Source: Oscillatoria sp. CS-180
Lineage (GTDB): Bacteria > Cyanobacteriota > Cyanobacteriia > Phormidesmidales > Phormidesmidaceae
Length of the DNA: 64,000 nucleotides
Assembly: GCF_028330965.1 (NCBI RefSeq)
Contig: NZ_JAQMUB010000043.1
Location: 62,001 to 126,000, forward strand
Direction: 5' to 3'
In this document: positions 1 to 16,573 of the stretch, piece by piece
Position numbering within the stretch: the stretch's first letter is position 1
Layout: each line of letters begins with the position of its first letter
Notes under the pieces: model-generated
The model's input: the letters and a program-made list of their open reading frames with translations, nothing else
Told to the model about the DNA's origin: nothing
The model's database searches: none
Position numbers and translations under genes: made by a program

Positions 1-516
1 GTTGAAGTAACGTTCAAGCTGGACTGAATAAAAGCCCATCTGAGTGTAGCGCCATAGATATTCCCAGTTGTTAGCACAGCGTTCTTCCTCGCGTTGAAGC
101 GCTAGTTCAAAATCAGAGATAGTCTCGCGTTCATCTCTGATCGCATGCATAAATGCTGAGTATGCCCTCTCCACTGGATCTCTAAGAATGACGATAAGTT
201 TAACGTTAGGCAAATAGTGGTAGATTCTTTCTGGAGCTTTAGTGCTATACAGATACCAAGTTGTTGCCTCTCCGATCGCTACCTCATCTGAAACATTACT
301 GAAAAGTTGCTGATATGCTTTGAAGTCAGTAATGATGTGGCTATATAGCTCAAGGTCACGGGGACCTGCAAACTTGGGAGATTCTCCTTCAAAGTCAAAG
401 AAGCCCGGCTCTTTAATTTCACTCACGAATATTTGAGGATGCCGACTCATATGTCTAGCAAGAGCAGTAGTGCCCGCCTTTTGAGCACCGATAATCAAAA
501 AATTAGGAAGTACCAC
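1..516 (-). CDS. Sulfotransferase, N-terminal 172 residues (cut by window edge)
   Basis: The frame is open from a GTG at 516 to the first base of the window, so the C-terminus is missing. The visible part has both PAPS-binding signatures of the cytosolic/heparan-type sulfotransferase fold: the 5'-phosphosulfate loop GAQKAGTTAL at about residues 10-19 and the 3'-phosphate motif RDPVERAYSAF at about 112-122. The family moves sulfate from PAPS to a sugar hydroxyl or similar acceptor in the cytoplasm. The GTG is chosen because a GAGGT ribosome-binding site lies upstream, an in-frame TGA sits eight codons before it, and the first in-frame ATG would remove the PAPS loop. It is last in a leftward run of glycosyltransferases, so sulfation of the exported polysaccharide is the natural inference. 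The acceptor is unknown. Confidence 0.9.
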   Translation of the reverse strand, partial: MVLPNFLIIGAQKAGTTALARHMSRHPQIFVSEIKEPGFFDFEGESPKFAGPRDLELYSHIITDFKAYQQLFSNVSDEVAIGEATTWYLYSTKAPERIYHYLPNVKLIVILRDPVERAYSAFMHAIRDERETISDFELALQREEERCANNWEYLWRYTQMGFYSVQLERYFN

Positions 517-575: not shown

Positions 576-1514
576 CTAAAGCCCGATTTTCACCTTAAAG
601 ATGCTCAGAGCATAGCTTATTGCTTTACGTAACTTTTGGACAGTACGGGCCTTTAAAGATCTATGCCAAACTTTCATAAACCTCTGTTGATCGTACTCTC
701 TATCGATTGCAGTCTCTTTTGGTGGTTTCAGTGGAAAGCTGATAGAAGCCACTCTCAAATTAGCTCTAGTGTCCTCTGAAGATTTGGTATTTGTTGCATT
801 TTTGCTGAATCCGACATTCGAGATCACGTTAACAGCTGGAGTAATAGTCATACCAGAATGCATCAAACACATGAAGAAAAATGGATAGGCCCACGAATCT
901 ATTTTTCCGTTGTATGCTTTGTCAAGTACTCGTGAACGATTTTCAAATTGCTGATCGTTATCAATAAATTCGCGAATATTTTTTTTAATATTAGGGCTAC
1001 TCCAAGCACTCATGTGAGGATCGTACAGTTGCCATACTCTACGCCAGGTTGCCCATCCCCAACAATCAAAATATGCGGAGAAATGAAAGCTTTGATCGTC
1101 GCTTTTCCAGTCACCCAGATGATTGTGGCCTGTTATACAAAAGATCTTCTCATCGTCTTTGTATTTTTCTAGCAGCTCGCTGCAATAGGCAAAAAAGGAA
1201 GTATTAGGGACACAATCATCCTCAAGAATGATCGCAGTCTCAACCTGTTCAAACACCCAGGTAAGTCCGCTCGATATTCTCTTTTTCAAGCCTAGGTTGA
1301 TATCCGAATAATTCTTGAAGACTTGACAATTCCAGTCAACTCCTTCGATAAGTTGGCGAGTTTCATAGCATTTATCTGTTTCCTCAGGATGATCACTTCT
1401 TGGACCATCAGCAATAACAAAAAGTTTTTGAGGAGCCGCCAGACGAATCGCTTCGATCACTCTTTGTGTCGTATCTGGCCTCTTGAAAATAACTAGAACA
1501 ACTGCAGTCTCCAT
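576..1514 (-). CDS. Glycosyltransferase, GT2-like (HlpA-like group)
   Basis: A 312-residue protein with a GT-A type start: a short hydrophobic strand, then DGP at 36-38, NLGLKKR at 73-79 and the probable metal/nucleotide-sugar motif EDDC at 98-101. A conserved CWGWATWRR block follows at 151-159. This combination is typical of bacterial glycosyltransferases often labelled family 2 or hemolytic protein HlpA-like. No membrane segment is obvious, so it probably acts at the inner face of the cytoplasmic membrane. It lies 59 nt upstream of the sulfotransferase on the same strand, in a cluster with two other glycosyltransferases. The ATG at 1514 has only a weak ribosome-binding site. Donor and acceptor sugars cannot be inferred. 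Confidence 0.75.
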   Translation of the reverse strand: METAVVLVIFKRPDTTQRVIEAIRLAAPQKLFVIADGPRSDHPEETDKCYETRQLIEGVDWNCQVFKNYSDINLGLKKRISSGLTWVFEQVETAIILEDDCVPNTSFFAYCSELLEKYKDDEKIFCITGHNHLGDWKSDDQSFHFSAYFDCWGWATWRRVWQLYDPHMSAWSSPNIKKNIREFIDNDQQFENRSRVLDKAYNGKIDSWAYPFFFMCLMHSGMTITPAVNVISNVGFSKNATNTKSSEDTRANLRVASISFPLKPPKETAIDREYDQQRFMKVWHRSLKARTVQKLRKAISYALSIFKVKIGL

Positions 1515-1640: not shown

Positions 1641-2885
1641 TTAGAAGCTACTCTTGATCGTAGTAAGCAATGGAAGTATGTGTTGCCTGTACAATAATCT
1701 AATACGTGAACCATAAAAATGCATGAAAGGAACCATGTGTATCTCATGCGAAGCTTCGTGAAAAACAGCATCAATCAGCCTTATCCACCTTGTTATTGTG
1801 AGATCTGTTTGAGCATCAAACCATTGAGCAACTGCCATAGACCTCTGTTGAAGTTCACGATATCTTAGGGGTTCAGAGACCAGCCATTCAACTTTTTCGG
1901 GTATCTTCTTGTGCCCATCAACAATTAGCTCTGGAAAAAAACGCATGCAATCCGACATGCCGTAGTCACCGGAAGCAATTACAGGAGTACCAAAAGCCAT
2001 ACATTCAAGTGGAGAAGCTGGAAAAGCCTCGGTATAACCTTTGGGGTTGAGAATAGCTAAGTGAGATTTTCTTAAAATGTCAAATTTTTCCTTGCCAAGA
2101 TTTCCATGAAATACAACTTTCCCATCATCAATATCCTGCTTGGGAATATATTCAAGTATTCTCTTTGCAAAGTCTGGAGAAGTCGGAATTAAATCAGAAT
2201 TGACCTTTAGACCATATGTAGCGACGGAACCGATAACATGTAATGTCATTTCAGGAAAGCGCTCTTTTAAGAAATTCCATGCCCTTGCAACTTCTAAAAA
2301 GCATTTTCCAGGAATCAAGGCACCCAAGTATACAACTTCAAGACGAGATTGATTGACGGGCAAAAAAGAAATTTCACTAGCAAGGTTCGGAAGAACAAAG
2401 ATATTTTGTATATGCTTTACATGATGGCTTATGGCCTGATTAGAATAGAACTGATATGTGCCAACACAAACAATATTTTTGAATTCAATTCGCGAGGACA
2501 GTGATCTCAAACTCTTATCAAATGGGTGCCTACTCCAAAAAATTATTCTTCGCGCAATTTTCTGGAGAGCTTTCACATCACTTCTTTTAAGAACTGATGC
2601 CACTGAAATTACAACGAATTCTTCACTTAAATTGAGACTATTAAAGAAGCTTGAACTATTTTCGAAAATAGCAATTCTTAGATTTTCTGGACAACAATCT
2701 AATAGAAAGGGAGCATTATTTACTAAGACAATCTCCCATTCGGGAGAGGCTTTCGCTAAAAGTAGCGATAATCGAATGGAAGTAAATTGTGTACCTCCGA
2801 CTCCAGGATTGCATCCATCTGCAGAGAATACTTTTGATTGAATAGCGTCAGAGAAGATTGGGATATAAACTTTTCGGATAATCAT
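1641..2885 (-). CDS. Glycosyltransferase family 4 (GT-B fold)
   Basis: A 414-residue retaining-type glycosyltransferase. The N-terminal half carries the glycine-rich acceptor-domain opening (GCNPGVGGTQ, about 24-33). The C-terminal half has the GT4 donor-binding pattern: VVYLGALIPGK, then the E-x7-E-like stretch EAFPASPLECMAFGTPVIA. The family transfers sugars from nucleotide donors during lipopolysaccharide, capsule or exopolysaccharide assembly. It is the middle of three leftward glycosyltransferase genes. The start codon and probable ribosome-binding site (AGGT) lie inside a long inverted repeat (2883-2930), so translation may be structure-dependent. The coding region is AT-rich and lacks HIP1 octamers, unlike most of the window, which suggests acquisition with its neighbours. 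Sugar specificity is unknown. Confidence 0.82.
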   Translation of the reverse strand: MIIRKVYIPIFSDAIQSKVFSADGCNPGVGGTQFTSIRLSLLLAKASPEWEIVLVNNAPFLLDCCPENLRIAIFENSSSFFNSLNLSEEFVVISVASVLKRSDVKALQKIARRIIFWSRHPFDKSLRSLSSRIEFKNIVCVGTYQFYSNQAISHHVKHIQNIFVLPNLASEISFLPVNQSRLEVVYLGALIPGKCFLEVARAWNFLKERFPEMTLHVIGSVATYGLKVNSDLIPTSPDFAKRILEYIPKQDIDDGKVVFHGNLGKEKFDILRKSHLAILNPKGYTEAFPASPLECMAFGTPVIASGDYGMSDCMRFFPELIVDGHKKIPEKVEWLVSEPLRYRELQQRSMAVAQWFDAQTDLTITRWIRLIDAVFHEASHEIHMVPFMHFYGSRIRLLYRQHILPLLTTIKSSF

Positions 2886-3029: not shown

Positions 3030-4142
3030 TCAGCAATTTTTGGCACTATCCTTTCGTTTGAAAATTCCGCCATTAGATAGGACAATTAGCTTTAATTTCG
3101 AAAACTTAAGCTTGTAGAGATTAATTCGCTTTTGAACTTGGTAATAATAAAATCTATATATTGAAGCCCCACAAGGAACAAATTCCTTCATCAAACTCAG
3201 CGTTATAATCAAACCCTCCAAAAAATGCTTAGGCGTATATCTGTGAATAATTTCTCGTGCTGCACTTATATCTTCTGTTGTTAGTCTAGACCGAAGAGTA
3301 TTTCGAAATACCTTCGTAGATACTTCAAGCTTGCTGTATTCGTCCAGATTAGCAATATAGTCCTCAAAAGACTTTCGCCCCTCCGCTTCGAGACGGTCAA
3401 GCCCGATTGTCTTTCTCTCACGAGCTAAGAATCTGGCAAAGAGACTGTAAAGTGCCTGCTTTTCAGCCTTTCTTGGGTTTCCAGCTACGTCAAATCTGGG
3501 ATCAATGACTTTGGTATACAACTCCTGCCTTAGCCTGACAATTGCATATTTGCTCAAAATACGTAACCAAAGATCGCGATCTTGACAGTAGACAAAAAAC
3601 GATCGGTAGCCGCCAAATTCTTGATATGCCCTCATTCTGACCATCGCATCACCGTGGTCCACGATATTTCTCTCAATCATTTGATCGACAGTGGTGTACT
3701 CAACGTGATTGCGTCGCTCACGTAAAGTATTACTCCCAAGTTTTTCAACCTTCTTTGGATTGGATTGGTCGGACACGATGTGGATATTTGTAAAACACGA
3801 AACAACAGCAACATTTGGCCTCGATTCAAGATACTGCAGCTGTGTTGCTAATCTATCAGGCAACGAAATATCGCCAGCTCCATGAATTGCGACATAGGGT
3901 GTTTTTATACTGCTCATCACCTGGATCATTGTTTTGATGAAACCCTGATTATCCTGATGGATAATCGTCAATCGTGGGTCATCAAACTCTGCCAAAATTT
4001 CTTTCGTATCGTCGGGCGAACCGTCGTTAACTACAATATACTCGAAGTCCTTGTAGGTCTGGTTCAAAATACTTCGAATGGACTGACGGTTTCGTTCTCC
4101 TTTGTTATAAGTTGCTGTGACTACAGTCAGTAATTTACTCAT
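3030..4142 (-). CDS. Glycosyltransferase family 2
   Basis: A 370-residue GT-A enzyme. It opens with the classic GT2 strand LLTVVTATYNKGE and has NDGSPDDT at about 39-46, the first aspartate motif that binds the nucleotide sugar. GAGDISLPDRL at about 88-98 fills the DxD position, and RDLWLRI at about 190 is the usual acceptor-side motif. The C-terminal third is less conserved and basic. The ATG at 4142 is preferred because the family motif starts four residues later; a GTG at 4154 in frame is an alternative and neither has a strong ribosome-binding site. A gap of about 220 nt separates it from murA upstream on the same strand, so it may have its own promoter. Likely adds a sugar to the polysaccharide repeat unit. 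Confidence 0.85.
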   Translation of the reverse strand: MSKLLTVVTATYNKGERNRQSIRSILNQTYKDFEYIVVNDGSPDDTKEILAEFDDPRLTIIHQDNQGFIKTMIQVMSSIKTPYVAIHGAGDISLPDRLATQLQYLESRPNVAVVSCFTNIHIVSDQSNPKKVEKLGSNTLRERRNHVEYTTVDQMIERNIVDHGDAMVRMRAYQEFGGYRSFFVYCQDRDLWLRILSKYAIVRLRQELYTKVIDPRFDVAGNPRKAEKQALYSLFARFLARERKTIGLDRLEAEGRKSFEDYIANLDEYSKLEVSTKVFRNTLRSRLTTEDISAAREIIHRYTPKHFLEGLIITLSLMKEFVPCGASIYRFYYYQVQKRINLYKLKFSKLKLIVLSNGGIFKRKDSAKNC

Positions 4143-4366
4143 AATTTTTTGCACGAGAATCGTTCATCGTTTCAACATTCAAAAGCATGCATTTTCTTAG
4201 TTACTCAATGGTAAATCTCCTGAAAAACATTCGTCCGTATCAATGAAGGTCTGAACAATTATAAAAACAGAATTATGTAAGGAGCGTAGTCCTTTCGGTT
4301 TATCTATAAAGCATGTTTCAGACAAGTACAAACCACTATGCAATTCTCCGAAACCTTTCTTTTGAG

Positions 4367-5638
4367 TCATGAAGCTTGGCTCTCGTATTCGAATAGTGCT
4401 TTTGCTTCTAGTTGTGACAACTTCTTTTCTAGCTGATCATATCCTCTCGAAATCTGCCAAGCGTTTGTGATTATTGTCAAGTTATGGGCCAGAAAGCCTA
4501 CTGTCATCAACGCAGCACCTGCCCTCAGGTCAAGTGCTCTTACCTCAGCGCCATGGAGAGAATTACCACCTTCAATCAGTAGAAGATTGTCTTTTACCTT
4601 GTAGCGGACACCCATTTTCGACAACTCGTCAGCGTATGCGTATCGTCCAGGAAATCTGAGATCTACAATGCGGCTTTCTCCTTTGGCAACTGCACCTAGT
4701 ACGGCAAAAAGTGGTTGCATATCAGAATTAATTCCTGGATATGGGCCAGTACTAATGTCAACTGGATAGCAAGTTGAGCCACGCACAATCAACCTATCGT
4801 CAAGCCGATATAAACGAACACCACTTTCTCGAAGATGAATTAAAGGAATTTCTAGATGCTCGAAAGGAAAGTCAATAATTTCAACATCTCCCCCTGTTAC
4901 AGCTGCTCCAACCAGCCATGTAAGTGCTTCAACGTTGTCGGGAATAACCTCATGATGAGTACTCCCTAATTCATCTACTCCTTCGACAAGAATACTTTCT
5001 TGTCCACGAACCTCTATTTTGGCTCCTAAGGATTTTAGAAATTGAATTAAATCTAGGATCTCTGGTCGAATGTGAGGCCCCCAGATGCGAGTCGTTCCAT
5101 TCGCTAAACAGGCTGCAAGAATGCTATTTTCTGTTGCTCCTGTAGAACGAATTGGCAAAAAGATATCTGCGCCTCTCAACCTTGTTCCATTTTGTACTTC
5201 AGCACAAAGACACCCGTCTTCTTCCCAAACGCTTGCTCCGAGGGTTTCCAACGCCATGACGTGGATATCATATTTGCGATCGCCGAGTTTACATCCTCCT
5301 GGAAGAGGGACTTTGCCTTTGCCTGTCCGTCCTGTGAGTGCTCCGAGGATCAGCAGCGTGTTGCGAATTGAACGTTTTTTCCATCGAAGTTCTGAAGATG
5401 GAAATTCTTTTTCTTTGATTTCTATTTCTTGAGGACTAATGAGCGTACAGTGTTTGCCTAATACCTCAAGCATTTCAACATGCAGACAGGCATCCAGGAG
5501 AGTACTTGGATAGTTTTGCAATCGAATATTGCCTGAGGTCAATAAAGATGCTGCAAGCAAACGCAAAGCGGAGTTCTTGGCACCACTAACTTTTACCTCT
5601 CCGACTAATCGCGAAGGACTGACAATAAGTTTATCCAT
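4367..5638 (-). CDS. murA: MurA-family UDP-N-acetylglucosamine 1-carboxyvinyltransferase
   Basis: A 423-residue EPSP-synthase-fold enyne transferase. MurA adds enolpyruvate from PEP to UDP-GlcNAc, the first committed step towards UDP-MurNAc. Residues matching the E. coli active site are all present: K21-N22 in SGAKN, R92, C116 in GGCKLG (the fosfomycin-sensitive cysteine), R121, D306 in NSDMQ, and R372 in DLRAG. It therefore looks catalytically competent. The sequence between motifs is clearly diverged from textbook MurA, for example IRNTLLILGAL where RASIWALGP is usual. The gene lies 11 nt downstream of murB and inside an exopolysaccharide cluster. It may be the housekeeping enzyme or a second copy serving polysaccharide synthesis; the window cannot decide. 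Confidence 0.85.
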   Translation of the reverse strand: MDKLIVSPSRLVGEVKVSGAKNSALRLLAASLLTSGNIRLQNYPSTLLDACLHVEMLEVLGKHCTLISPQEIEIKEKEFPSSELRWKKRSIRNTLLILGALTGRTGKGKVPLPGGCKLGDRKYDIHVMALETLGASVWEEDGCLCAEVQNGTRLRGADIFLPIRSTGATENSILAACLANGTTRIWGPHIRPEILDLIQFLKSLGAKIEVRGQESILVEGVDELGSTHHEVIPDNVEALTWLVGAAVTGGDVEIIDFPFEHLEIPLIHLRESGVRLYRLDDRLIVRGSTCYPVDISTGPYPGINSDMQPLFAVLGAVAKGESRIVDLRFPGRYAYADELSKMGVRYKVKDNLLLIEGGNSLHGAEVRALDLRAGAALMTVGFLAHNLTIITNAWQISRGYDQLEKKLSQLEAKALFEYESQAS

Positions 5639-5649
5639 ACTATTGCTAT

Positions 5650-6543
5650 CTACTCTAAGAAATGAACTTCTGGACTTAGATGAATACCAAATTGGATCTC
5701 AACTTTGCTTTGTATATGAGCAATAAGTTGACGAATATCTTTCGCTGTTGCTCCCCCTAAGTTTTCAATCCAATTTGCATGCACTGAACTTACCCTAGCT
5801 TTTCCGATTTGCAATCCCTTCAGACCAGCTTGATCGATATACCAACCTGCTCCTTTACCTCCGGGAACTGATTTGAAAGTGCTCCCTGCTGTAGGTTTAT
5901 CTAAAGGTTGTTTTCGTTTGCGCTCTGCAAGATGCTCAAATGTATTACGGCGAACCACTGCTGGGTCTTCTTCCTCCTCTAGCCGAAAACGAACCCGTAA
6001 AACAAATCTTTCTCCATTCAGCAAATCGGTTCTTCGATAGCCAACATTAATATCCTGCATAGTTAGTGTTTCAACGCTACCGTCTGCATTAAGAACATCA
6101 AAATTTTCGACAACGGAAACCATTTCACGAGGACGGAAAACTGTTAAACCAGCATTCATCGCCAGTGCTCCTCCAACAGTTCCAGGTATACCAATAAGGA
6201 ACTCGAATCCTGCAAATCCATGTTTAGCTGCGAATTTCGAGACATGCGGGAGAAAAGCTCCACTCTCTGCAACAATCAAGTTGTTTTCTCGACATATTTC
6301 AGTGAGAGAGTTGCAGGTCACAATAACCAACCCTGGTAAACCCTCATCATCTATCAGGATATTGGAACCACGCCCTATGAAATAAGATTTGATGCCTTGA
6401 GTATTGGCCCACTCCATCAAATCTGGCATCTGATCTGCCTTCGGTTCGATAAACCAACGGGCAGTCCCACCTACTTTCCAGGTTGTATAGTCAGCAAGTA
6501 ACACTTCTTGCAACAATTGGATGGACGAGTCTATCTTTTTCAC
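5650..6543 (-). CDS. murB: UDP-N-acetylenolpyruvoylglucosamine reductase (MurB)
   Basis: A 297-residue flavoenzyme that reduces the MurA product with NADPH to UDP-MurNAc. The FAD-binding segment has TTWKVGGTARW, FIGRGSNILI and GIPGTVGGALAMNAG. Catalytic positions are visible: R170 in GYRRTD, S221 in AGSTFKS, and E292 in the C-terminal PEVHFLE. Length and the shortened C-terminus fit the type II group. The start is GTG at 6543 with GGTGAGC upstream. It sits 11 nt before murA and 18 nt after a serine-acetyltransferase-like gene, so the three are probably co-transcribed. In many cyanobacteria murB lies beside murC, so this location beside murA and export genes is unusual. Confidence 0.9.
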   Translation of the reverse strand: MKKIDSSIQLLQEVLLADYTTWKVGGTARWFIEPKADQMPDLMEWANTQGIKSYFIGRGSNILIDDEGLPGLVIVTCNSLTEICRENNLIVAESGAFLPHVSKFAAKHGFAGFEFLIGIPGTVGGALAMNAGLTVFRPREMVSVVENFDVLNADGSVETLTMQDINVGYRRTDLLNGERFVLRVRFRLEEEEDPAVVRRNTFEHLAERKRKQPLDKPTAGSTFKSVPGGKGAGWYIDQAGLKGLQIGKARVSSVHANWIENLGGATAKDIRQLIAHIQSKVEIQFGIHLSPEVHFLE

Positions 6544-6561: not shown

Positions 6562-7113
6562 TCATAGATTTCCTTTGTAAGGCACACCTACTGCTACCGT
6601 ATTTGCAGGAACATCTGATAGAACAACGGCATTAGCTCCTACAATTGCGTTTTCACCAACCTTGATATTACCTAGTAAAACAGCACCAGCAAATATTTTC
6701 ACTCCGCTACAAATATAGGGATATTCTTGTCGGGCACGTGGTTTGCCATGGCTGCCAAGAGTAACGTTTTGCCATATTGAAACATCATCTTCTATAACTA
6801 CACCATCACCAATTACAATTCCCGCTGGATGGGGTAAGTACAACCGCTTTCCGATTGAGCCTTTAAAGGATAAGTAACAACCATATCGACTCTGTAAAGA
6901 CTTGAAAATATATGCAAATCTCTTACGCCCATGAACATACAAAAACCGAGATATACGATAGCAGAAAAGTACTCTAATGCTTGGTGAGAATACGAGATAG
7001 AAAAGAGCAAGTTTGTAGGACCTTGTCTTTAAAGAAAGATCAGATTTCAAGTCTGAAAGAAGCTCACCTAAAGGATAGGGATGCCGATCTGTTGTAGAAA
7101 GAGTATCTTTCAT
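6562..7113 (-). CDS. Serine O-acetyltransferase-like hexapeptide protein
   Basis: A 183-residue protein whose C-terminal two thirds is a left-handed beta-helix made of hexapeptide turns: VIGDGVVIEDDVSIWQNVTLG, then IFAGAVLLGNIKVGENAIVGANAVV, ending in VPANTVAVGVP. The HPAGIVIG and TLGSHG segments match the CysE active-site region. It lacks the long N-terminal helical domain of housekeeping CysE and resembles the shorter polysaccharide-associated acetyltransferases (EpsC/WcaB style), which acetylate serine or sugars. It lies between an ABC exporter and murB with short gaps, so O-acetylation of a polysaccharide precursor is a reasonable inference. A role in cysteine synthesis cannot be excluded. 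Confidence 0.75.
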   Translation of the reverse strand: MKDTLSTTDRHPYPLGELLSDLKSDLSLKTRSYKLALFYLVFSPSIRVLFCYRISRFLYVHGRKRFAYIFKSLQSRYGCYLSFKGSIGKRLYLPHPAGIVIGDGVVIEDDVSIWQNVTLGSHGKPRARQEYPYICSGVKIFAGAVLLGNIKVGENAIVGANAVVLSDVPANTVAVGVPYKGNL

Positions 7114-7145: not shown

Positions 7146-8978
7146 TTACTTTGAAGCTTGCACCATGCTTCTGAAACTTTGGCTAAGATTTAACAGCTCC
7201 TTATAACTTCCTTTAGCAACAATACTTCCCTGATGCAGCTCAAAAATTGTGTCGCATTTTTCGACAGTACTCAGACGATGCGCAATCAAAATAATTGTGA
7301 ATTTGTGACTTAGGCGATTAATTGCGTCCATTACTTCTTTTTCAGTCGCATTGTCCAATGCACTTGTTGCTTCGTCGAATACAATGACTGAGGCTTGACG
7401 ATAAAGTGCCCGAGCGATACCAATTCTTTGTCTTTGCCCGCCCGATAGCCTCACGCCCCTTTCACCTACATAGGTATCGTATTTTGCTGGAAGACTATCA
7501 ATAAAATCGCTGACCTGAGCTAATCGAGCAGCATTTTGAACGCGCTCAAAATCAATTTCTGCTTTAGGGATTGCAAATGCAATATTTTCTGCAATTGAAG
7601 CATCTGTCAAGAAAATATGCTGGGGAACATGGGCAATACCGCTTTGCCACTGTCGCCAACTATCTCCCTCCAAAACCTGGTCATCAACCCAGACTGTCCC
7701 TTTTTGAGGTCTTAGTAACCCTAAAATCAGATCTGCGGTTGTGCTTTTTCCGCTTCCTGTAGTTCCTACAAACCCGATTGTTGTCTTCGCAGCGATCTTC
7801 AAATTCAAATTTTTGAGTACCCAATCGCCATCTTCGGTATATCGGAACCAGACGTTTTTTACTCTAATTCCTCGTTCCAACGTCAACTGCCTAGTAGCTG
7901 CCAGTTGTTTCTGGTGTGAGAAGTCTATTGAACGCTTTAGTGCAACAAGAACCCTCTCCAAAGATGTTCGTGATCCCTGAACTTGAGCAATGGAAAGAAA
8001 AACAGATTGAAGAGCTGGCAGTAATCGTTTGGCACCTAATGCTAAGCTGCCTAAAACTGGAACAGCTTGACTAAAATCGCCGTTTCTACCTAAGGCCACA
8101 GACAGAAGAGCGATCGCCGCCATCGTAATCGCCTCGATTAAAAACTTAGGAGACTGAGAAATTACAGCATTTTGAGCCTGTATGTTCTTAAACTTAAGCT
8201 CTGCATTTTGGAACTCATTCTCAAAAAAGCCGTAGGTGTGAGCAATCAAGACATCTCGAATACCACCGATGCTCTCTTGGACAGTCTTGATTCTACGCTG
8301 CCCCGATTGAGATACGAGTTTGCTATTACGCTTCAGAATCCTCTGTCTGAGGCGATATGTAACAAGGTAAGCAGATCCCAATATTGCGGCAGCTGAAATT
8401 GCAATTGGAGCGTCAATTAGAATCAGCGCCCAGATTAGCGAGAAAACTAGAATACCGTCTGTGAAAGCAGTCAGCAGCGGAGTTATAATCCTTGTTGTCA
8501 AACGATTTGTGTCGTCTAACAGGGTTTGCATCAAATCACTGCTGTTGTGGCGAGCATGAAATTGATAAGGCTGTTGAAGTGTTTTATGGAAAATTTTGCA
8601 GCTTATATCACAACCAATAGCAGCCGATAAATATACTCGTGCTCTAACGGTCAAGAAACGTAGGCTGTTTGAAATTATGGCCGCAAAGACAAAGACTAGT
8701 GCTAATCCGACGACGAGCTGCGATACCGTCTCGATATTTAAGAATGTTATTAGTACCTGCCATCTAGGATTTTCTAGCAGCTCCTCAGGGTTGCTGAGTG
8801 CACTTAGAAAAGGCAACAAAGCTCCCAAGCTAATCATCTCACTTAAAGAAGACAACACCATCAGGGCTAATAAAGCGACGAGATGCCGCTGATGTTTGTT
8901 GTTTATATGCTTGAATAACTGCCGAATATCCTGAACTAAGGTATTACCCTTTGCTTTCTTCTTAGTCTTAATTCTCAT
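7146..8978 (-). CDS. ABC exporter, fused permease-ATPase (MsbA/PglK type)
   Basis: A 610-residue half-transporter. Residues about 30-330 hold six hydrophobic segments of a type I exporter membrane domain. The nucleotide-binding domain follows with Walker A GTTGSGKST at about 405-413, signature LSGGQRQR at about 508, Walker B VIVFDEATSAL at about 530 and H-loop AHRLS. It should act as a homodimer that flips a lipid-linked substrate or exports it across the plasma membrane. As the first gene of the leftward exopolysaccharide run it is the likely flippase for the sugar built by the downstream enzymes. A basic N-terminal tail (MRIKTKKKAK) precedes the first helix. Substrate is inferred from context only. 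Confidence 0.88.
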   Translation of the reverse strand: MRIKTKKKAKGNTLVQDIRQLFKHINNKHQRHLVALLALMVLSSLSEMISLGALLPFLSALSNPEELLENPRWQVLITFLNIETVSQLVVGLALVFVFAAIISNSLRFLTVRARVYLSAAIGCDISCKIFHKTLQQPYQFHARHNSSDLMQTLLDDTNRLTTRIITPLLTAFTDGILVFSLIWALILIDAPIAISAAAILGSAYLVTYRLRQRILKRNSKLVSQSGQRRIKTVQESIGGIRDVLIAHTYGFFENEFQNAELKFKNIQAQNAVISQSPKFLIEAITMAAIALLSVALGRNGDFSQAVPVLGSLALGAKRLLPALQSVFLSIAQVQGSRTSLERVLVALKRSIDFSHQKQLAATRQLTLERGIRVKNVWFRYTEDGDWVLKNLNLKIAAKTTIGFVGTTGSGKSTTADLILGLLRPQKGTVWVDDQVLEGDSWRQWQSGIAHVPQHIFLTDASIAENIAFAIPKAEIDFERVQNAARLAQVSDFIDSLPAKYDTYVGERGVRLSGGQRQRIGIARALYRQASVIVFDEATSALDNATEKEVMDAINRLSHKFTIILIAHRLSTVEKCDTIFELHQGSIVAKGSYKELLNLSQSFRSMVQASK

Positions 8979-9521: not shown

Positions 9522-9950
9522 CTAACGTACAAACCCAAAATCTTTGACTCCATTAAAATTAATCATTCGTGACTGTCGCCTTGTAAATTCACTCACTGAA
9601 GGATTTCCGGCAGGCTGAATCACACCTGATACTTGCTGCCAAAGTTCTTTAGGTGCCACTCTGAGCACATAGGACCGATCGCCCGTCTTACAAACGTGAT
9701 ACCACTTTGTTTCCTGACAGTGGTCACACCAGAACGCCTCTAGCCATTCTCCGGTAAGCGGCACTGTATTGTGATGAGCAATGGCTAGTAGCGATCGCTT
9801 CGGACTTAGTCCTCGTTCCTGAAGCTGACCTGCTTCATCCGCGTATAGAGAATGCTTTTGGCTAACGCTATCCAGATAACAGTTGTGAACTGGACAGTAG
9901 ATCGCTCGTCGTTTTGAGCGCTTTCGGTTGCGTTCAGATCTTCTCTTCAT
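9522..9950 (-). CDS. Conserved hypothetical, CxxH/CxxC zinc-ribbon-like
   Basis: A 142-residue protein. The ATG at 9950 is chosen over an upstream in-frame start at 10037 because a near-perfect AGGAGGTG lies immediately before it (9951-9960). The very basic N-terminus (MKRRSERNRKRSKRR) is followed by CPVHNC and, about 65 residues later, CDHC. Together these could bind one zinc ion. The middle contains a run of histidines (AIAHHN) and a Trp-rich stretch. No enzyme motif is seen. The basic tail plus zinc-ribbon pattern suggests nucleic-acid binding, but this is inference. It stands between the polysaccharide biosynthesis run and wzc on the same strand, separated from both by long spacers. Confidence 0.72.
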   Translation of the reverse strand: MKRRSERNRKRSKRRAIYCPVHNCYLDSVSQKHSLYADEAGQLQERGLSPKRSLLAIAHHNTVPLTGEWLEAFWCDHCQETKWYHVCKTGDRSYVLRVAPKELWQQVSGVIQPAGNPSVSEFTRRQSRMINFNGVKDFGFVR

Positions 9951-10604
9951 AACACCTCCTATCACTAGATACACTAATCCTGTAGAGGGGTTATCTGGAG
10001 GGACTGAGATCCTAAGACCGTCGAAGCCCAACTCCAACTCTTAAAAGGCTAAATTGTATTTCTGACTACTAAAAACTTTCAGACTATTATAAAGACTCTA
10101 AAAAACTGCTTTAAGTTCCAGAATGCAAACTCATATGTGTACGACCTCCTAATCTATTTTATGCATACCGATATGTATTCATGGCGACATTAGGAATGCA
10201 GAATTATCTCAGACAATGAATACAGAAGTTGTGTCTTTGCATTGATGCTCTACATTTATTATCTCAGCAGTATTTAGTGGAAATCCGGACAATTCAGAAG
10301 GCTTTCAAACAGTATTGTACAAATAAATTGGGCATTAAGGGTCAACTCATAGACATAAAGCAGCACACCTGTGGAAACTACTGAGCCCTAAAAAAGTACC
10401 TAAGCAAAAGCTCTTTTGTTCTCATCAAACCTGAAGTCATGAATATGCGCTTCAAAGAAGCAAACAGAGCAATAGGCTATATTTATGGCGTTTTCGTGTA
10501 AAAAATTGATGTATTCTGATTTTCTGGCATGAACAAAAGAGCCATTAAAGGTTCTTCAAATGCTTTTCATGAGCCTTAAGTGCAAAACATAGGGTTCTCT
10601 AAAG

Positions 10605-10996: not shown

Positions 10997-13237
10997 TTAA
11001 AGCGATAAGCCCTTTCTACGAGTCAAAACTCTTTCAGACTCAACTGCATTTTCTACAGAATAGCCCTTGGGCTGACGCAGATAGAACTGTCCATCTGGCT
11101 CATTCGTTGGATTCACACCATTGACAACCATGCCCAGCACTCGTTGTTGAGATTGGGCAAGAACGTCTGTCGCATTGCGCCCCTGAGCATGATCAACAAC
11201 ACCAGGACGCACCACTAGCAAAATACCATCAGACATTCTGCCTAAGATGGACGCATCTGCGTATCCTGATAGGGGAGGTGCATCTACAATAATCATTTCG
11301 TAGTGCTGAGCTAGCGATTGCAGAAGCGAATTCATTCGTTTCGAATCTAGCAGGGCCACGGGGTTTGGCGGTACAACCCCTCCGGTTAAAACGTCTAGAT
11401 TGCCTAGTACTGGCTGAATACAGTCCTTAACACTGGCCTGTCCTGTAATAACATGGCTAAGCCCTTGCTGATTCAAAACCTTAAGCGCATGATGTTGGCG
11501 TGGACATCTCATATCAGCATCAATTAGCAAAACCCGCTTGCCAACCTGAGCTAACGCCGCAGCAAGGTTCGCAGAAACTTCGGATTTTCCTTCTCCAGAA
11601 ACTGCACTCGTCATGACTACCGTTCTAAGTTCAGTATCAGACTGCAGAAATTTCAGATTCGCCTGAAGTATTTGATAGGCCTCTCGTACTCCTGAGTACT
11701 CAGGTTGATCCACCAGGAGTCGTGGTAGGGACGGATCGAGATCCTGTCGTCCTGAACTTTTTACAAAAGGGATGACACCTAGTAGCGTGTAGCCATAGAG
11801 TTCTTTTACCTCTTTGATCGTCTTGACAGAGCTATCTAGCAAATCGATCAAGAATGCCGTTGCAACCCCCAAGAGAAAACCAACAAATACGCCTGCCGCA
11901 AGGTAAAGCCTACTGCTAGATCCCATTGGATTTTCAGGAACCTCTGCTAAAGACACGACCTGTACGTTGCCAACAGTCTGATTTTCGATAACGCGGATTT
12001 CTTGGAGCTGGGCTAGTAGTGCCTCGTAAGTCGATTGGGATGCCTGAAGCTGACGTTCGAGCTGGCGTTGAGTCTTCTCTAGTTCTGGCAAGTTATCCAT
12101 CTCCTGAGTGTAGAGATCTCGGGTTTGGGTTAACTCGTTCAACCGATCTACTAGCCCCACTCGCTGGACTTCCAAATTAGCCAAATTGTCAATCAAGCCC
12201 AGACGCAAGTTGCCGAGCTGCAGACGGCCAAAATCTATTTGACTTACTGGAACAGATAGGTATTGCCCAGCAACTTCTTCGATGCGAACCTTCAATAGAG
12301 CTTCAGCTTCAGCTTGTTCTCGCAGTAAAATCCGCATCTCTGGATGATTTTCGCTGTAGAGGGCCCGCAGTTCTGCTACCTCAGACTGCACTGTCTGCAA
12401 ATTCGCTAGGGCAGTTTGCACCCCTTCAGATTGATTGAGTGCACTGAGTGAAATTGCTTCTGATACACCTAATCCTAATTGTCCTTGTAGTCGGTTAGCT
12501 TGAGCACCTACCTCTGAAAGGTCAGCTTGAACTTGATAAATCTCCTCATCAAGCTCGGACAATGTCCTGACAGCGTTGTTAGCTTCGGCATCTAAAACGA
12601 TGACGCCATTATCTTCCTTGAACTGACGAAGGTCTGATTCTGCTTCTAGTACATTATCTTCAATAGTAGGTAGTTGTTCCTCAATGAAACGCCGGGCTGC
12701 TGCTGCCTCTTCCTTGTTGTTTGCTATGTTGAGCTCGCGATACTCCTGAATAACCTGATTGACGATCGCCGCCGCTTCCTCTGGATCATCGGATTGAGTT
12801 GAGATTTGTAGGATTTCGGTTCCTGTAATAGGTGAAACATCAACCCTACCAAGTAATGATCGGGGCTCAACAGGCTCACCATTGTCATTAATGAGTTCCA
12901 GTTCCTCGATAACCTCTTGCATGACAGGCAAAGATCTTACAATCTCAGACTGTGTATCTAATGGTTCTCCACGACCTGGAAGTACGTCCACCTGACCCCG
13001 ATCATCTTCCAACCCAGTGAGGGCAGAGGTACGATCGCTCTTAAACCTAACTCGACCTTCGGCAGAGTAGACGTCCTCCTCCCTCAAAGCAGCAAAGAGG
13101 GCTAGTGCCACCGTACCGCCGAACACGACAAGCGCTGGCAACCAGCGCCGCTTGAGCACTAGCCAATACTTTTGAAAGTCTATTTCTTCAATATATTCGG
13201 CGGTTTGCCGAGTATCACTATCATGTTGTTGAGACAT
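10997..13237 (-). CDS. Polysaccharide co-polymerase / tyrosine autokinase (Wzc type)
   Basis: A 746-residue inner-membrane protein. Order of parts: a cytoplasmic tail, first membrane helix at about 33-50, a long extracytoplasmic Wzz domain with coiled coil (about 55-440), second helix at about 444-466, then a cytoplasmic BY-kinase domain. Kinase motifs are Walker A AVSGEGKS at 545-552, Walker A' LLIDADMR at 570-577 and Walker B MIIVDAPP at 648-655. The family controls chain length and export of capsular or exopolysaccharide through cycles of tyrosine autophosphorylation. The C-terminal tail has only two tyrosines (about 719 and 726) rather than the usual cluster, so phospho-regulation may be reduced. 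It is oriented with the leftward polysaccharide genes and anchors that assignment. Confidence 0.92.
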   Translation of the reverse strand: MSQQHDSDTRQTAEYIEEIDFQKYWLVLKRRWLPALVVFGGTVALALFAALREEDVYSAEGRVRFKSDRTSALTGLEDDRGQVDVLPGRGEPLDTQSEIVRSLPVMQEVIEELELINDNGEPVEPRSLLGRVDVSPITGTEILQISTQSDDPEEAAAIVNQVIQEYRELNIANNKEEAAAARRFIEEQLPTIEDNVLEAESDLRQFKEDNGVIVLDAEANNAVRTLSELDEEIYQVQADLSEVGAQANRLQGQLGLGVSEAISLSALNQSEGVQTALANLQTVQSEVAELRALYSENHPEMRILLREQAEAEALLKVRIEEVAGQYLSVPVSQIDFGRLQLGNLRLGLIDNLANLEVQRVGLVDRLNELTQTRDLYTQEMDNLPELEKTQRQLERQLQASQSTYEALLAQLQEIRVIENQTVGNVQVVSLAEVPENPMGSSSRLYLAAGVFVGFLLGVATAFLIDLLDSSVKTIKEVKELYGYTLLGVIPFVKSSGRQDLDPSLPRLLVDQPEYSGVREAYQILQANLKFLQSDTELRTVVMTSAVSGEGKSEVSANLAAALAQVGKRVLLIDADMRCPRQHHALKVLNQQGLSHVITGQASVKDCIQPVLGNLDVLTGGVVPPNPVALLDSKRMNSLLQSLAQHYEMIIVDAPPLSGYADASILGRMSDGILLVVRPGVVDHAQGRNATDVLAQSQQRVLGMVVNGVNPTNEPDGQFYLRQPKGYSVENAVESERVLTRRKGLSL

Positions 13238-14002: not shown

Positions 14003-15202
14003 ATGGCACTGGACACCCAAAATCTAGCTTCGACTCAGCCGAAGCTATCACAACTGGATACAGCGGGGGACATTCAGGAGGCTGTAGCGCGGGGAGCCGC
14101 AGGGGTTTCGTTACGCTCAGTCACGAAGAAGTACGGTAACTTCACTGCGATCGAAAATCTGACGTTAGATATTCCTGCAGGTTCCTATTGTTGTCTATTA
14201 GGTCCTAGCGGCTGTGGAAAAACGACGACGCTGCGGATGGTGGCAGGGCATGAGCCGGTGACGAATGGTGATGTTTACATTGGCGATCGCCGCGTCAACG
14301 CCCTGCCGCCAGCCAAACGAAACACTGCCATGATGTTTCAAAATTATGCGCTGTTTCCTCACAAGACCGTGTGGCAAAACGTGGAATTTGGTCTGCGGAT
14401 GCGAGGCATCAACACTGCTGAGCGGCAAGTGCGAGTCAGTGAAATTTTGGAGTTGGTTGGGTTGGGACATACCGGCGATCGCAAGCCCGATCAGCTAAGC
14501 GGAGGCCAACAGCAGCGGATCGCGTTGGCTCGGGCACTGGTCACCCGTCCCCAAGTTTTAATGCTAGATGAACCACTTAGCGCCCTGGACGAAAATCTGC
14601 GAGTCCGTATGCGGAGTGAACTGCGAAACATTCAGAAGCAATTTGGTCTGACCTTTATTCAGGTCACCCATCACGTCGAAGAGGCCTTTTCGCTTTCTGA
14701 TCAGATTGTCGTGATGGACCACGGACACATTGATCAGGTCGCAACACCCACGGAACTGTTCGAAGCGCCTGCCTCTCGCTTTGTGGCCCGGTTCATTGGC
14801 GACAACAACATTTTCGAAGGCAAGGTGGTGAACGTCATTCCCGATGACGGCACCTTCGATGTCATTGAACTAGATGTCGAAGGCTTGGGCTCTGTCTTTA
14901 GCCGAGGACAAGCCGTGCCTGTGGGCCAAACGGCGGCCTGCTCTGTCCGCCCAGATTTACTGGCCATAGTGACTAGCTCAGAAGAACAATCATCCTTCAC
15001 GAAGGACAACCACCTGACAGCGAGGATCGTAGACGTTGAGCTGACGGGCTACGTGACTCGCGTAGGACTTCTCTCTGAAGCCACCGGACAGGAACTGCTC
15101 TACAAGGTTCGGACCTCAGACTGGTCGCGGATGGGATTGAGCGAAGGGCAGGTCGTTATGCTGCGCTGGTCTGCCCATGATTGCGTTTTTCTACCGTATT
15201 GA
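14003..15202 (+). CDS. potA: Polyamine ABC transporter ATPase (PotA-like)
   Basis: A 399-residue importer ATPase. After a 30-residue extension come Walker A LGPSGCGKTT, Q-loop MMFQNYALFPH, signature LSGGQQQRIA, Walker B VLMLDEPLSALD and the switch histidine QVTHHVEEA. The last 100 residues form the TOBE regulatory domain that binds the substrate-related signal in CUT1/PotA ATPases. AGAAGGA precedes the ATG. It heads a four-gene run (ATPase, binding protein, two permeases), the usual spermidine/putrescine importer order in cyanobacteria. Related importers for iron or thiamine share this ATPase type, so substrate identity rests on the whole set. Confidence 0.9.
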   Translation: MALDTQNLASTQPKLSQLDTAGDIQEAVARGAAGVSLRSVTKKYGNFTAIENLTLDIPAGSYCCLLGPSGCGKTTTLRMVAGHEPVTNGDVYIGDRRVNALPPAKRNTAMMFQNYALFPHKTVWQNVEFGLRMRGINTAERQVRVSEILELVGLGHTGDRKPDQLSGGQQQRIALARALVTRPQVLMLDEPLSALDENLRVRMRSELRNIQKQFGLTFIQVTHHVEEAFSLSDQIVVMDHGHIDQVATPTELFEAPASRFVARFIGDNNIFEGKVVNVIPDDGTFDVIELDVEGLGSVFSRGQAVPVGQTAACSVRPDLLAIVTSSEEQSSFTKDNHLTARIVDVELTGYVTRVGLLSEATGQELLYKVRTSDWSRMGLSEGQVVMLRWSAHDCVFLPY

Positions 15203-15265
15203 TACGGTGTTGACTGATTGCCTTAAACTGCCCTTAATCAATTTACGTTGTGAGGAACATTTTCG

Positions 15266-16573
15266 ATGGCTAACATTTCTCGTCGTCACGTCATTCGGAC
15301 TGGGCTGGCCGCTGGGGCTGCGATCGCAGCGGCTCGATGTGGTACTGCCCCTGAAGGAACTCCCAATAATCCCGCTCCGGGTCCCGAGGTCAACACCAAC
15401 CAAATTAAGGACGTGACCCTGCGACTCATTGGTACTGGAGTGTCTCAAATCAATGAGATTCGCGACAAGGCGCAGGAAGATCTAGGCTTCAGCGTGGAAA
15501 TGCGAGCACTGAGCACCGAAGAGAATAACCAGATTGCCATTACGCAGCCAGGGCAGTACGACATCTTTGATGGGGAATACTTCAGCTTGCCGCTGGTGGT
15601 CCCTTCTGGAAACTTGCAGGCGATCGATATCTCACGGATTTCAGACTGGGACAAAATTGTGTCCTTTTTCACAACTGGTGAATTCGACGGTATGCCTGTA
15701 GAAGCCTCTCAGGGCACCGCACCTTACAAGGTCATGTACCTTCAGGGTGCAGACTCAACGGAATTTTCCAGTACGCCTACGGATCATGCGACGCTGATCC
15801 CGTTCCAATACAACGCTGATACCCTGGGCTATCGTCCTGACTTGGTGGGACGCAACATTGAAACTTGGGGCGAGCTTTTCAACGAAGAATTTAGGGGTAA
15901 GACCTCCATTCTGGATATTCCTCAGATCGGCATTATGGATGCGGCAATGGTTGCTGAGTCCTTGGGACTGATGACGTTTGGCGATAAAGGCAATATGACG
16001 CAGGCCGAAATCGACCAGATCATTGAGATCTTGAAGGAGCAAAAAGCTGCGGGCCAGTTCCGAGCCTTTTGGAAGACCTTCGACGAATCAGTCAACCTAA
16101 TGTCTTCTGGCGAAGTTATCCTGCAATCGATGTGGTCTCCAGCGGTGACAGCAGTTCAATCCAAGGGAATTGACTGCATCTACGCTCCTCTAAAAGAAGG
16201 CTATCGCGGCTGGGGTGGCGGTGTCGGCCTATCTAAAGGCTTAGAGGGCATTCAGCTGGATGCGGCTTACGAATATCTGAACTGGATGTTGGAAGGCTGG
16301 GTCGGCGCGTTCTTAGGCCGTCAAGGCTACTACAGTGCAGCTCCTGAAAATGCCAAGCAGTATATGTCTGATGCCGAATGGGCCTACTGGTATGAGGGGG
16401 AACCTGCTCCCGAAGATATCGTAGACCCCTTTGGTAAGACCCTAGCCAAGACCAGCACAGTCCGTGACGGTGGATCCTTTAAGGAGCGCTTCGGCAATAT
16501 TGTCTGCTGGAATTCCGCGATGGAGGAAAATACCTATCTCGTTCAGAAGTGGAATGAGTTTATTGCTTCATAA
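15266..16573 (+). CDS. potD: Extracellular solute-binding protein (PotD-like), Tat signal
   Basis: A 435-residue periplasmic binding protein. The N-terminus SRRHVIRTGLAAGAAIAAA is a twin-arginine signal, so it is probably exported folded. The Cys after it (ARCG) is close to, but not a good, lipobox. The mature part has family 1/PotD-type features, including VTLRLIGTGVS and FDGEYFSLP near the start and WGGGVGLSKG late. It begins 63 nt after potA and should deliver polyamine or a related cation to the two permeases downstream. At 435 residues it is longer than E. coli PotD (about 350), in line with cyanobacterial homologues. Ligand is inferred from family. Confidence 0.85.
   Translation: MANISRRHVIRTGLAAGAAIAAARCGTAPEGTPNNPAPGPEVNTNQIKDVTLRLIGTGVSQINEIRDKAQEDLGFSVEMRALSTEENNQIAITQPGQYDIFDGEYFSLPLVVPSGNLQAIDISRISDWDKIVSFFTTGEFDGMPVEASQGTAPYKVMYLQGADSTEFSSTPTDHATLIPFQYNADTLGYRPDLVGRNIETWGELFNEEFRGKTSILDIPQIGIMDAAMVAESLGLMTFGDKGNMTQAEIDQIIEILKEQKAAGQFRAFWKTFDESVNLMSSGEVILQSMWSPAVTAVQSKGIDCIYAPLKEGYRGWGGGVGLSKGLEGIQLDAAYEYLNWMLEGWVGAFLGRQGYYSAAPENAKQYMSDAEWAYWYEGEPAPEDIVDPFGKTLAKTSTVRDGGSFKERFGNIVCWNSAMEENTYLVQKWNEFIAS

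Follow-up and report, generated by a model that had tools for sequence, protein, structure and literature searches.

A second MurA–MurB set in an exopolysaccharide locus of Oscillatoria sp. CS-180, a candidate nucleotide-sugar pathway for a secreted polysaccharide

An exopolysaccharide (EPS) locus of Oscillatoria sp. CS-180 carries homologues of MurA and MurB, here called MurA2 and MurB2, which are a second set beside a separate housekeeping MurA and MurB. We propose, with a probability of roughly 0.78, that murA2 and murB2 form a nucleotide-sugar pathway dedicated to a secreted polysaccharide rather than to peptidoglycan, whatever the acceptor sugar may be. The observations behind this are the second set itself, its separate clade, the co-location of the two partners, the retained catalytic residues, a group of rewritten positions and the polysaccharide context.

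Lactyl-ether sugars have been reported in cyanobacterial, marine and O-antigen polysaccharides. If MurA2 and MurB2 produce such sugars, a small enzyme pair would explain this trait and allow its prediction from genome sequence in at least nine phyla, and the first two steps of peptidoglycan synthesis would have been re-aimed at another sugar. Database entries for MurA and MurB that belong to the MurA2 clade would then not be cell-wall enzymes, which matters for annotation of essentiality and of the fosfomycin target.

The locus and the second set

The window, i.e. the whole stretch of 64,000 nucleotides analyzed here, contains both ORFs (Table 1). ABC exporter, acetyltransferase, murB2 and murA2 follow one another in a tight run, with gaps of 32, 18 and 11 nt. 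The initial annotation had described MurA and MurB homologues in an EPS locus, flanked by an acetyltransferase, an ABC exporter and glycosyltransferases; both ORFs were recovered with exact coordinates, and profile matches agree with all of the flanking assignments. Outside the window, on the same contig, the EPS locus also encodes a WecG/TagA-family glycosyltransferase, a Wzy_C-domain protein and a priming sugar transferase.

Table 1. Features of the exopolysaccharide locus, in window positions
Feature	Coordinates	Strand	Remarks
Sulfotransferase-domain protein crossing window start	1..516	-	remainder on same contig, locus L006
Probable glycosyltransferase	576..1514	-	weak GNT-I match, under Pfam cut-off
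Group 1 glycosyltransferase	1641..2885	-	
Family 2 glycosyltransferase	3030..4154	-	212 nt downstream of murA2
murA2, enolpyruvyl-transferase-like protein, EPS-type MurA clade	4367..5638	-	423 aa, ATG start
murB2, MurB-type FAD reductase, distinct from housekeeping MurB	5650..6543	-	297 aa, GTG start
Hexapeptide acyltransferase, CysE/EpsC-like	6562..7113	-	profile matches
HepA/MsbA-like ABC exporter, first gene of tight run	7146..8978	-	profile matches
Wzc-like chain-length determinant/tyrosine autokinase of EPS locus	10997..13237	-	

The genome (6.53 Mb in 102 contigs; listed completeness 100%) holds three genes of the EPSP synthase family and two for MurB. Besides murA2, the former are the housekeeping MurA on contig C59 (L009) and a gene on contig C92 that reads as AroA (L008). 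The second MurB lies on contig C29 (L007), right after an ORF read as murC, which has a Mur-ligase match. The initial annotation had offered two readings, that the window genes are the only cell-wall copies or that they are a second set. Because the genome encodes a housekeeping MurA and MurB at other sites, the first is excluded; the second is right, and the window pair groups apart from those other copies.

Four sulfotransferase-domain proteins are encoded in the EPS locus (L006 9649-16513, contig C83, to window position 516), which suggests a sulfated polysaccharide. A 171-aa ORF (9522-10037, minus strand), located between the genes for the ABC exporter and the Wzc-like kinase, has no Pfam or NCBIfam match; an ORF 65% identical to it adjoins the exporter in locus L011. 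Beside the EPS locus (14003-16573, plus strand), a gene for a spermidine/putrescine-type ABC-transporter ATPase is followed by one for a possible solute-binding protein, both named by eye.

Distribution and phylogeny of MurA2

A genome-collection scan returned 131 relatives of the window MurA, of which 80, with 57–79% identity, were retained; together with the window they make up the 81 loci considered below. Besides cyanobacteria, MurA2 occurs in Bacteroidota, Pseudomonadota, Verrucomicrobiota, Spirochaetota, Planctomycetota, Thermodesulfobacteriota, Armatimonadota and Omnitrophota, with some rows coming from metagenome-assembled genomes. It is also present in seven plasmid records, of which five are from Rhizobium. 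Within cyanobacteria MurA2 is rare and patchy. Counting the window's own genome, it was found in 3 of 59 near relatives (E under 1e-200) and in 6 of 388 genomes of the window's class (E ≤ 1e-120; one match partial).

The initial annotation had named a phylogeny as a check, and MurA2 falls outside the housekeeping clade of its own phylum. In a quick tree without bootstrap, covering 36 of the 81 MurA2 (nine phyla) and 48 housekeeping MurA, the two groups are split by one branch of length 2.58 (SH-aLRT 100). MurA2 proteins are on average 63% identical to one another and housekeeping MurA 49%, against 34% between the groups. The MurA2 proteins of Psychrobacter and Aliidiomarina nest within Bacteroidota in the same quick tree, which fits horizontal transfer.

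Against the NCBIfam murA model TIGR01072, the window MurA scores 363.2 bits, under the equivalog cut-off of 392.7; with the broader PRK09369 it reaches 382.5 bits (cut-off 297). Eight of 39 MurA2 in the loci genomes searched narrowly exceed the TIGR01072 cut-off (393–404 bits), so the family model separates the two kinds imperfectly. In L204 and L205, annotation pipelines give MurA2 and MurB2 the names of the peptidoglycan enzymes, MurA and MurB. The MurA search of loci genomes covered 39 of the 80 related loci (the MurB search, 29 of 80). A MurA-class match was found in all 39 genomes and was above the cut-off in 37; the exceptions are G034 (Rubripirellula obstinata) and G037, in which the housekeeping MurA is apparently split over two contigs. 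In an Alkalispirochaeta genome (L015, G006, contig C19), the housekeeping MurA is directly followed by another MurA-class match (416 bits, profile positions 79–416).

No MurA above the cut-off was found in any of 149 genomes of the R. obstinata family (Pirellulaceae by NCBI name), a sample of unstated completeness drawn from a larger group. Only two MurA-class matches in these genomes exceed 100 bits (358 and 351). Both carry the MurA2 signature PHIRPE/RFPGRY, with a MurB adjoining and polysaccharide genes around. MurA2 is thus retained in genomes that gave no standard MurA, in a family where divergent peptidoglycan genes are possible. The best Mur-ligase match of R. obstinata (L062, G034) is MurE-like and reaches 125 bits (cut-off 257), with three weaker ones besides; the second MurB of this genome scores under its cut-off.

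These data bear on a reading in which both proteins serve peptidoglycan synthesis, as redundant or stress-induced enzymes. Gram-positive bacteria have comparable duplicates, MurA and MurZ. The conserved fold and catalytic residues, the pipeline labels and the eight MurA2 just above the murA cut-off all accord with this reading. It does not sit well with the polysaccharide loci, the separate clade, the rewritten positions or the presence of MurA2 in only six of the 388 genomes of the window's class, nor with its being the only strong MurA-class match in two Rubripirellula-family genomes, and we regard it as highly improbable.

The MurB partner and neighboring genes

The window MurB scores 227.9 bits against TIGR00179 (cut-off 144.5) and 297.2 bits against PRK13905 (cut-off 259). 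A MurB ORF was called in 65 of the 81 loci, always on the same strand as MurA2 and within four genes and 3.2 kb of it (maximum gap 3,113 bp). An HMM search added two more (L043, L082), for a total of 67 loci with MurB near MurA2. As a control, we placed the housekeeping genes: in 23 of 23 genomes with both located, MurA and MurB are >100 kb apart or on different contigs, although contig ends could hide some closeness. The remaining 14 loci, several of them on short contigs, gave no MurB in the examined locus DNA by ORF or HMM.

Such loci would be expected if the enolpyruvyl group stayed in the polymer and MurB2 had another job. However, MurB accompanies MurA2 in 67 of 81 loci, and all 65 called MurB2 ORFs retain the catalytic Arg, Ser and Glu (R170, S221 and E292 in the window); we consider a retained enolpyruvyl group very unlikely. 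The three residues presumably match Arg159, Ser229 and Glu325 in MurB numbering, where we take Ser229 to be a catalytic residue. Arg159 and Glu325 are named in PMC12844806. In 4 of 29 genomes checked (those of L012, L041, L056 and L074) there is a single MurB, so reduction in these organisms would be carried out by the housekeeping enzyme or be absent. L041, L056 and L074 keep the acyltransferase, flippase and glycosyltransferase families.

Two MurB trees were built, the first with 30 of the 65 MurB2 and the second with 29 of the 65 plus L168 and L169, which lie inside MurB2 clades; L035, which has a long branch, and three short housekeeping rows were left out of the second. The window MurB groups with the MurB2 of L010, L011 and L013 (100/100; careful tree). 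The cyanobacterial MurB2 clade is sister to cyanobacterial housekeeping MurB at 93/84 (not starred) and distant from it in branch length. MurB genes outside the locus DNA, from the genomes of L068 and L078, also fall inside MurB2 clades. MurB2 resembles MurB (TIGR00179) in its score and catalytic triad; it differs in that the window protein belongs to a cyanobacterial clade of its own and has MurA2, not MurC, as its partner. Three MurB2 lineages are strongly supported, which is suggestive of several independent recruitments; these are not claimed here, because a single clade of all MurB2 was not rejected (p-AU 0.41).

Within four genes of MurA2 in the 81 loci, one family each of flippase-like proteins (43 loci), acyltransferases (that of the window; 34), glycosyltransferases (34) and epimerases (25) is frequent. 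Relatives of the window acyltransferase are present in 33 of the 80 related loci, 32 of them within three genes of MurA2. In Anabaenopsis, as judged by eye, a partial duplicate of the start of MurB2 directly follows MurA2 (L010 11266-11622), and a transposase-like ORF (L010 8984-9937) takes the place of the window's acetyltransferase.

Catalytic residues, the rewritten pocket and the acceptor

The initial annotation had stated that both proteins keep all catalytic residues and that MurA is diverged around its active-site loop. The former holds for the window MurB and for the window MurA, in which K21, N22, R92, C116, R121, D306, D370, R372 and R398 are present. Equivalents of Lys22, Asn23, Arg91, Cys115, Arg120, Asp305 and Arg397 occur in 81 of 81 MurA2, or in 80 with one gap, depending on the position. 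The fosfomycin-target cysteine is found in all 81 MurA2 and in 32 of 48 housekeeping MurA, the other 16 having Asp. As for the loop, it is largely conserved (LPGGCKLGDR versus LPGGCAIGAR in the organism's own housekeeping MurA); MurA diverges more consistently at positions that we assign to the UDP-sugar pocket.

The latter positions are numbered here as in E. coli, taken as the Photobacterium housekeeping MurA minus 8. We assume, from UniProt and structural work, that positions 160–163, 305 and 327 of E. coli MurA bind UDP-GlcNAc, and that 161, 188 and 327 line the UDP-sugar site. Changes placed near this site in MurA2 are A92→N, 161 (variable in housekeeping MurA)→R, V163→T, A185-A186→P-H, E188→R, F302-P303-T304→I-N-S and 327 (I/V/M)→R. 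Six of these (E188→R, 327→R, 161→R, A92→N, P303→N and T304→S) are invariant in the 81 MurA2. R164, R191 and R328 (E. coli positions 161, 188 and 327) are Arg in 81 of 81 MurA2, and Arg or Lys in none of the 48 housekeeping proteins; in the AroA of the window genome, the residue aligned with 327 is a lysine. In all, 24 positions carry a residue shared by at least 80 of the 81 MurA2 and seen in none of the 48 housekeeping MurA. Part of this invariance is selection: the related loci were retrieved with query peptides, an approach that is biased toward close relatives and makes residues look more invariant than they are, and 21 of the 48 housekeeping rows lie on or near the cyanobacterial side of the tree. 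The rewritten pocket suggests that the acceptor is another UDP-sugar, perhaps an acidic one, and argues against plain UDP-GlcNAc.

An AlphaFold model of MurA2 (pLDDT 91.5, pTM 0.90) matches E. cloacae MurA best (Z 52), followed by NikO (Z 42) and AroA (Z ∼36); the structure alignment comprised 31 MurA2 rows, with L042 left out (stops in the match). MurA2 is like MurA (TIGR01072) in fold and in its catalytic equivalents. It differs in that the window protein is under the equivalog cut-off, in its separate clade and polysaccharide loci, and in the changes at pocket-placed positions such as 188 and 327. NikO is a MurA-fold enolpyruvyl transferase outside peptidoglycan, described in an excerpt of PMC6801904 as acting on UMP in nikkomycin synthesis, which indicates that the fold can be redirected to another nucleotide. 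Unlike NikO, MurA2 is nearer MurA in sequence and fold, has a MurB partner and belongs to a polysaccharide context rather than a nucleoside-antibiotic pathway.

The chemistry, lactyl product and acceptor of the two enzymes are predictions from sequence. MurA2 would transfer enolpyruvate from PEP to a hydroxyl (O-3 by homology) of a UDP-sugar, using the Lys22/Cys115/Asp305 chemistry of MurA. MurB2 would reduce the enolpyruvyl ether, by homology with FAD and NADPH, to an (R)-lactyl (1-carboxyethyl) ether. Local glycosyltransferases would then use the UDP-lactyl sugar, and the polymer would be exported; that of the window organism would probably be O-acetylated and sulfated through the action of neighboring genes.

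The acceptor in this scheme is probably not plain UDP-GlcNAc. The three invariant arginines, above all E188→R, favor an acidic sugar and make UDP-glucuronate, or a related acidic UDP-sugar, the likeliest single candidate, with UDP-GlcNAc as the main rival. A sugar of the predicted type exists: 3-lactyl-glucuronic acid (nosturonic acid, 3-O-lactyl-glucuronic acid) is described in a part of PMC5983295 as a component of Vibrio alginolyticus EPS, with Nostoc commune cited there. The words 'gene', 'biosynthesis' and 'MurA' do not occur in the main text of that paper; the link between nosturonic acid and MurA2/MurB2 is our inference. We tentatively suggest that the two proteins are an unrecognized, horizontally spread pair for 3-O-lactyl uronic acids, in which MurA2 would act on UDP-glucuronate or another UDP-uronate and the new arginines would bind the sugar carboxylate. 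We would not give this suggestion even odds; if true, peptidoglycan chemistry would have been re-aimed at a different sugar.

Alternatively, the acceptor could be UDP-GlcNAc and the product UDP-MurNAc, giving a muramic-acid polysaccharide; a separate set would not be subject to the feedback and flux of the peptidoglycan pathway. This reading keeps the favored role and changes only the acceptor; it is, in our judgment, rather unlikely. MurNAc does occur outside peptidoglycan, in the core of Psychrobacter arcticus (an extract of PMC4515632, where Yersinia ruckeri and Proteus penneri are cited) and in the capsule of Vibrio vulnificus ATCC 27562 (an extract of PMC7247339), and the locus of another Psychrobacter (L045) carries MurA2 and MurB. 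Moreover, in the four genomes with MurA2 and a single MurB, that MurB would be enough if the intermediate were the usual one. On the other hand, the same substrate needs no rewrite such as that seen at the six invariant positions, and a MurA above the cut-off is already present in 37 of 39 genomes. The initial annotation had suggested UDP-MurNAc-type sugars for a secreted polysaccharide containing muramic or related lactyl sugars. Locus context and the MurB partner across phyla speak for a secreted lactyl-sugar polysaccharide; the UDP-MurNAc part is uncertain, given the pocket rewritten in 81 relatives. For a link to E. coli O antigens, a DNA search with a Psychrobacter MurA2 found nothing, which is weak evidence at such divergence.

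Among the listed matches from searches of open-licence papers, at the level of titles and the starts of abstracts, we found no tie between MurA/MurB homologues and lactyl sugars of secreted polysaccharides; a published assignment could exist. Pediococcus murA (and, in PMC12492903, also murB) is listed in the available portions of PMC12492903 and PMC12570439 among genes considered for EPS sugar supply, and 'lactyl' and 'muramic', as word starts, are absent from those portions.

Returning to UDP-glucuronate, the only full nucleotide-sugar dehydrogenase of this genome is encoded on contig C63, outside the EPS locus. There is none on the window's contig, and no uronate-forming enzyme was seen among the subset of EPS-locus ORFs scanned. 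Across the 81 loci, 34 have CapI-like (UDP-glucuronate-epimerase-like) or nucleotide-sugar dehydrogenase genes, and CapI-like genes lie directly upstream of MurA2 in 12, counts that rest on an ad hoc motif that misses some look-alikes, in loci where other epimerases are present and without matched control loci. As a clue to the acceptor, these neighbors are suggestive only. An Agrobacterium plasmid has genes for a UDP-sugar dehydrogenase and an epimerase, then two more genes, then murB and murA2, in this order, with O-antigen ligase genes around.
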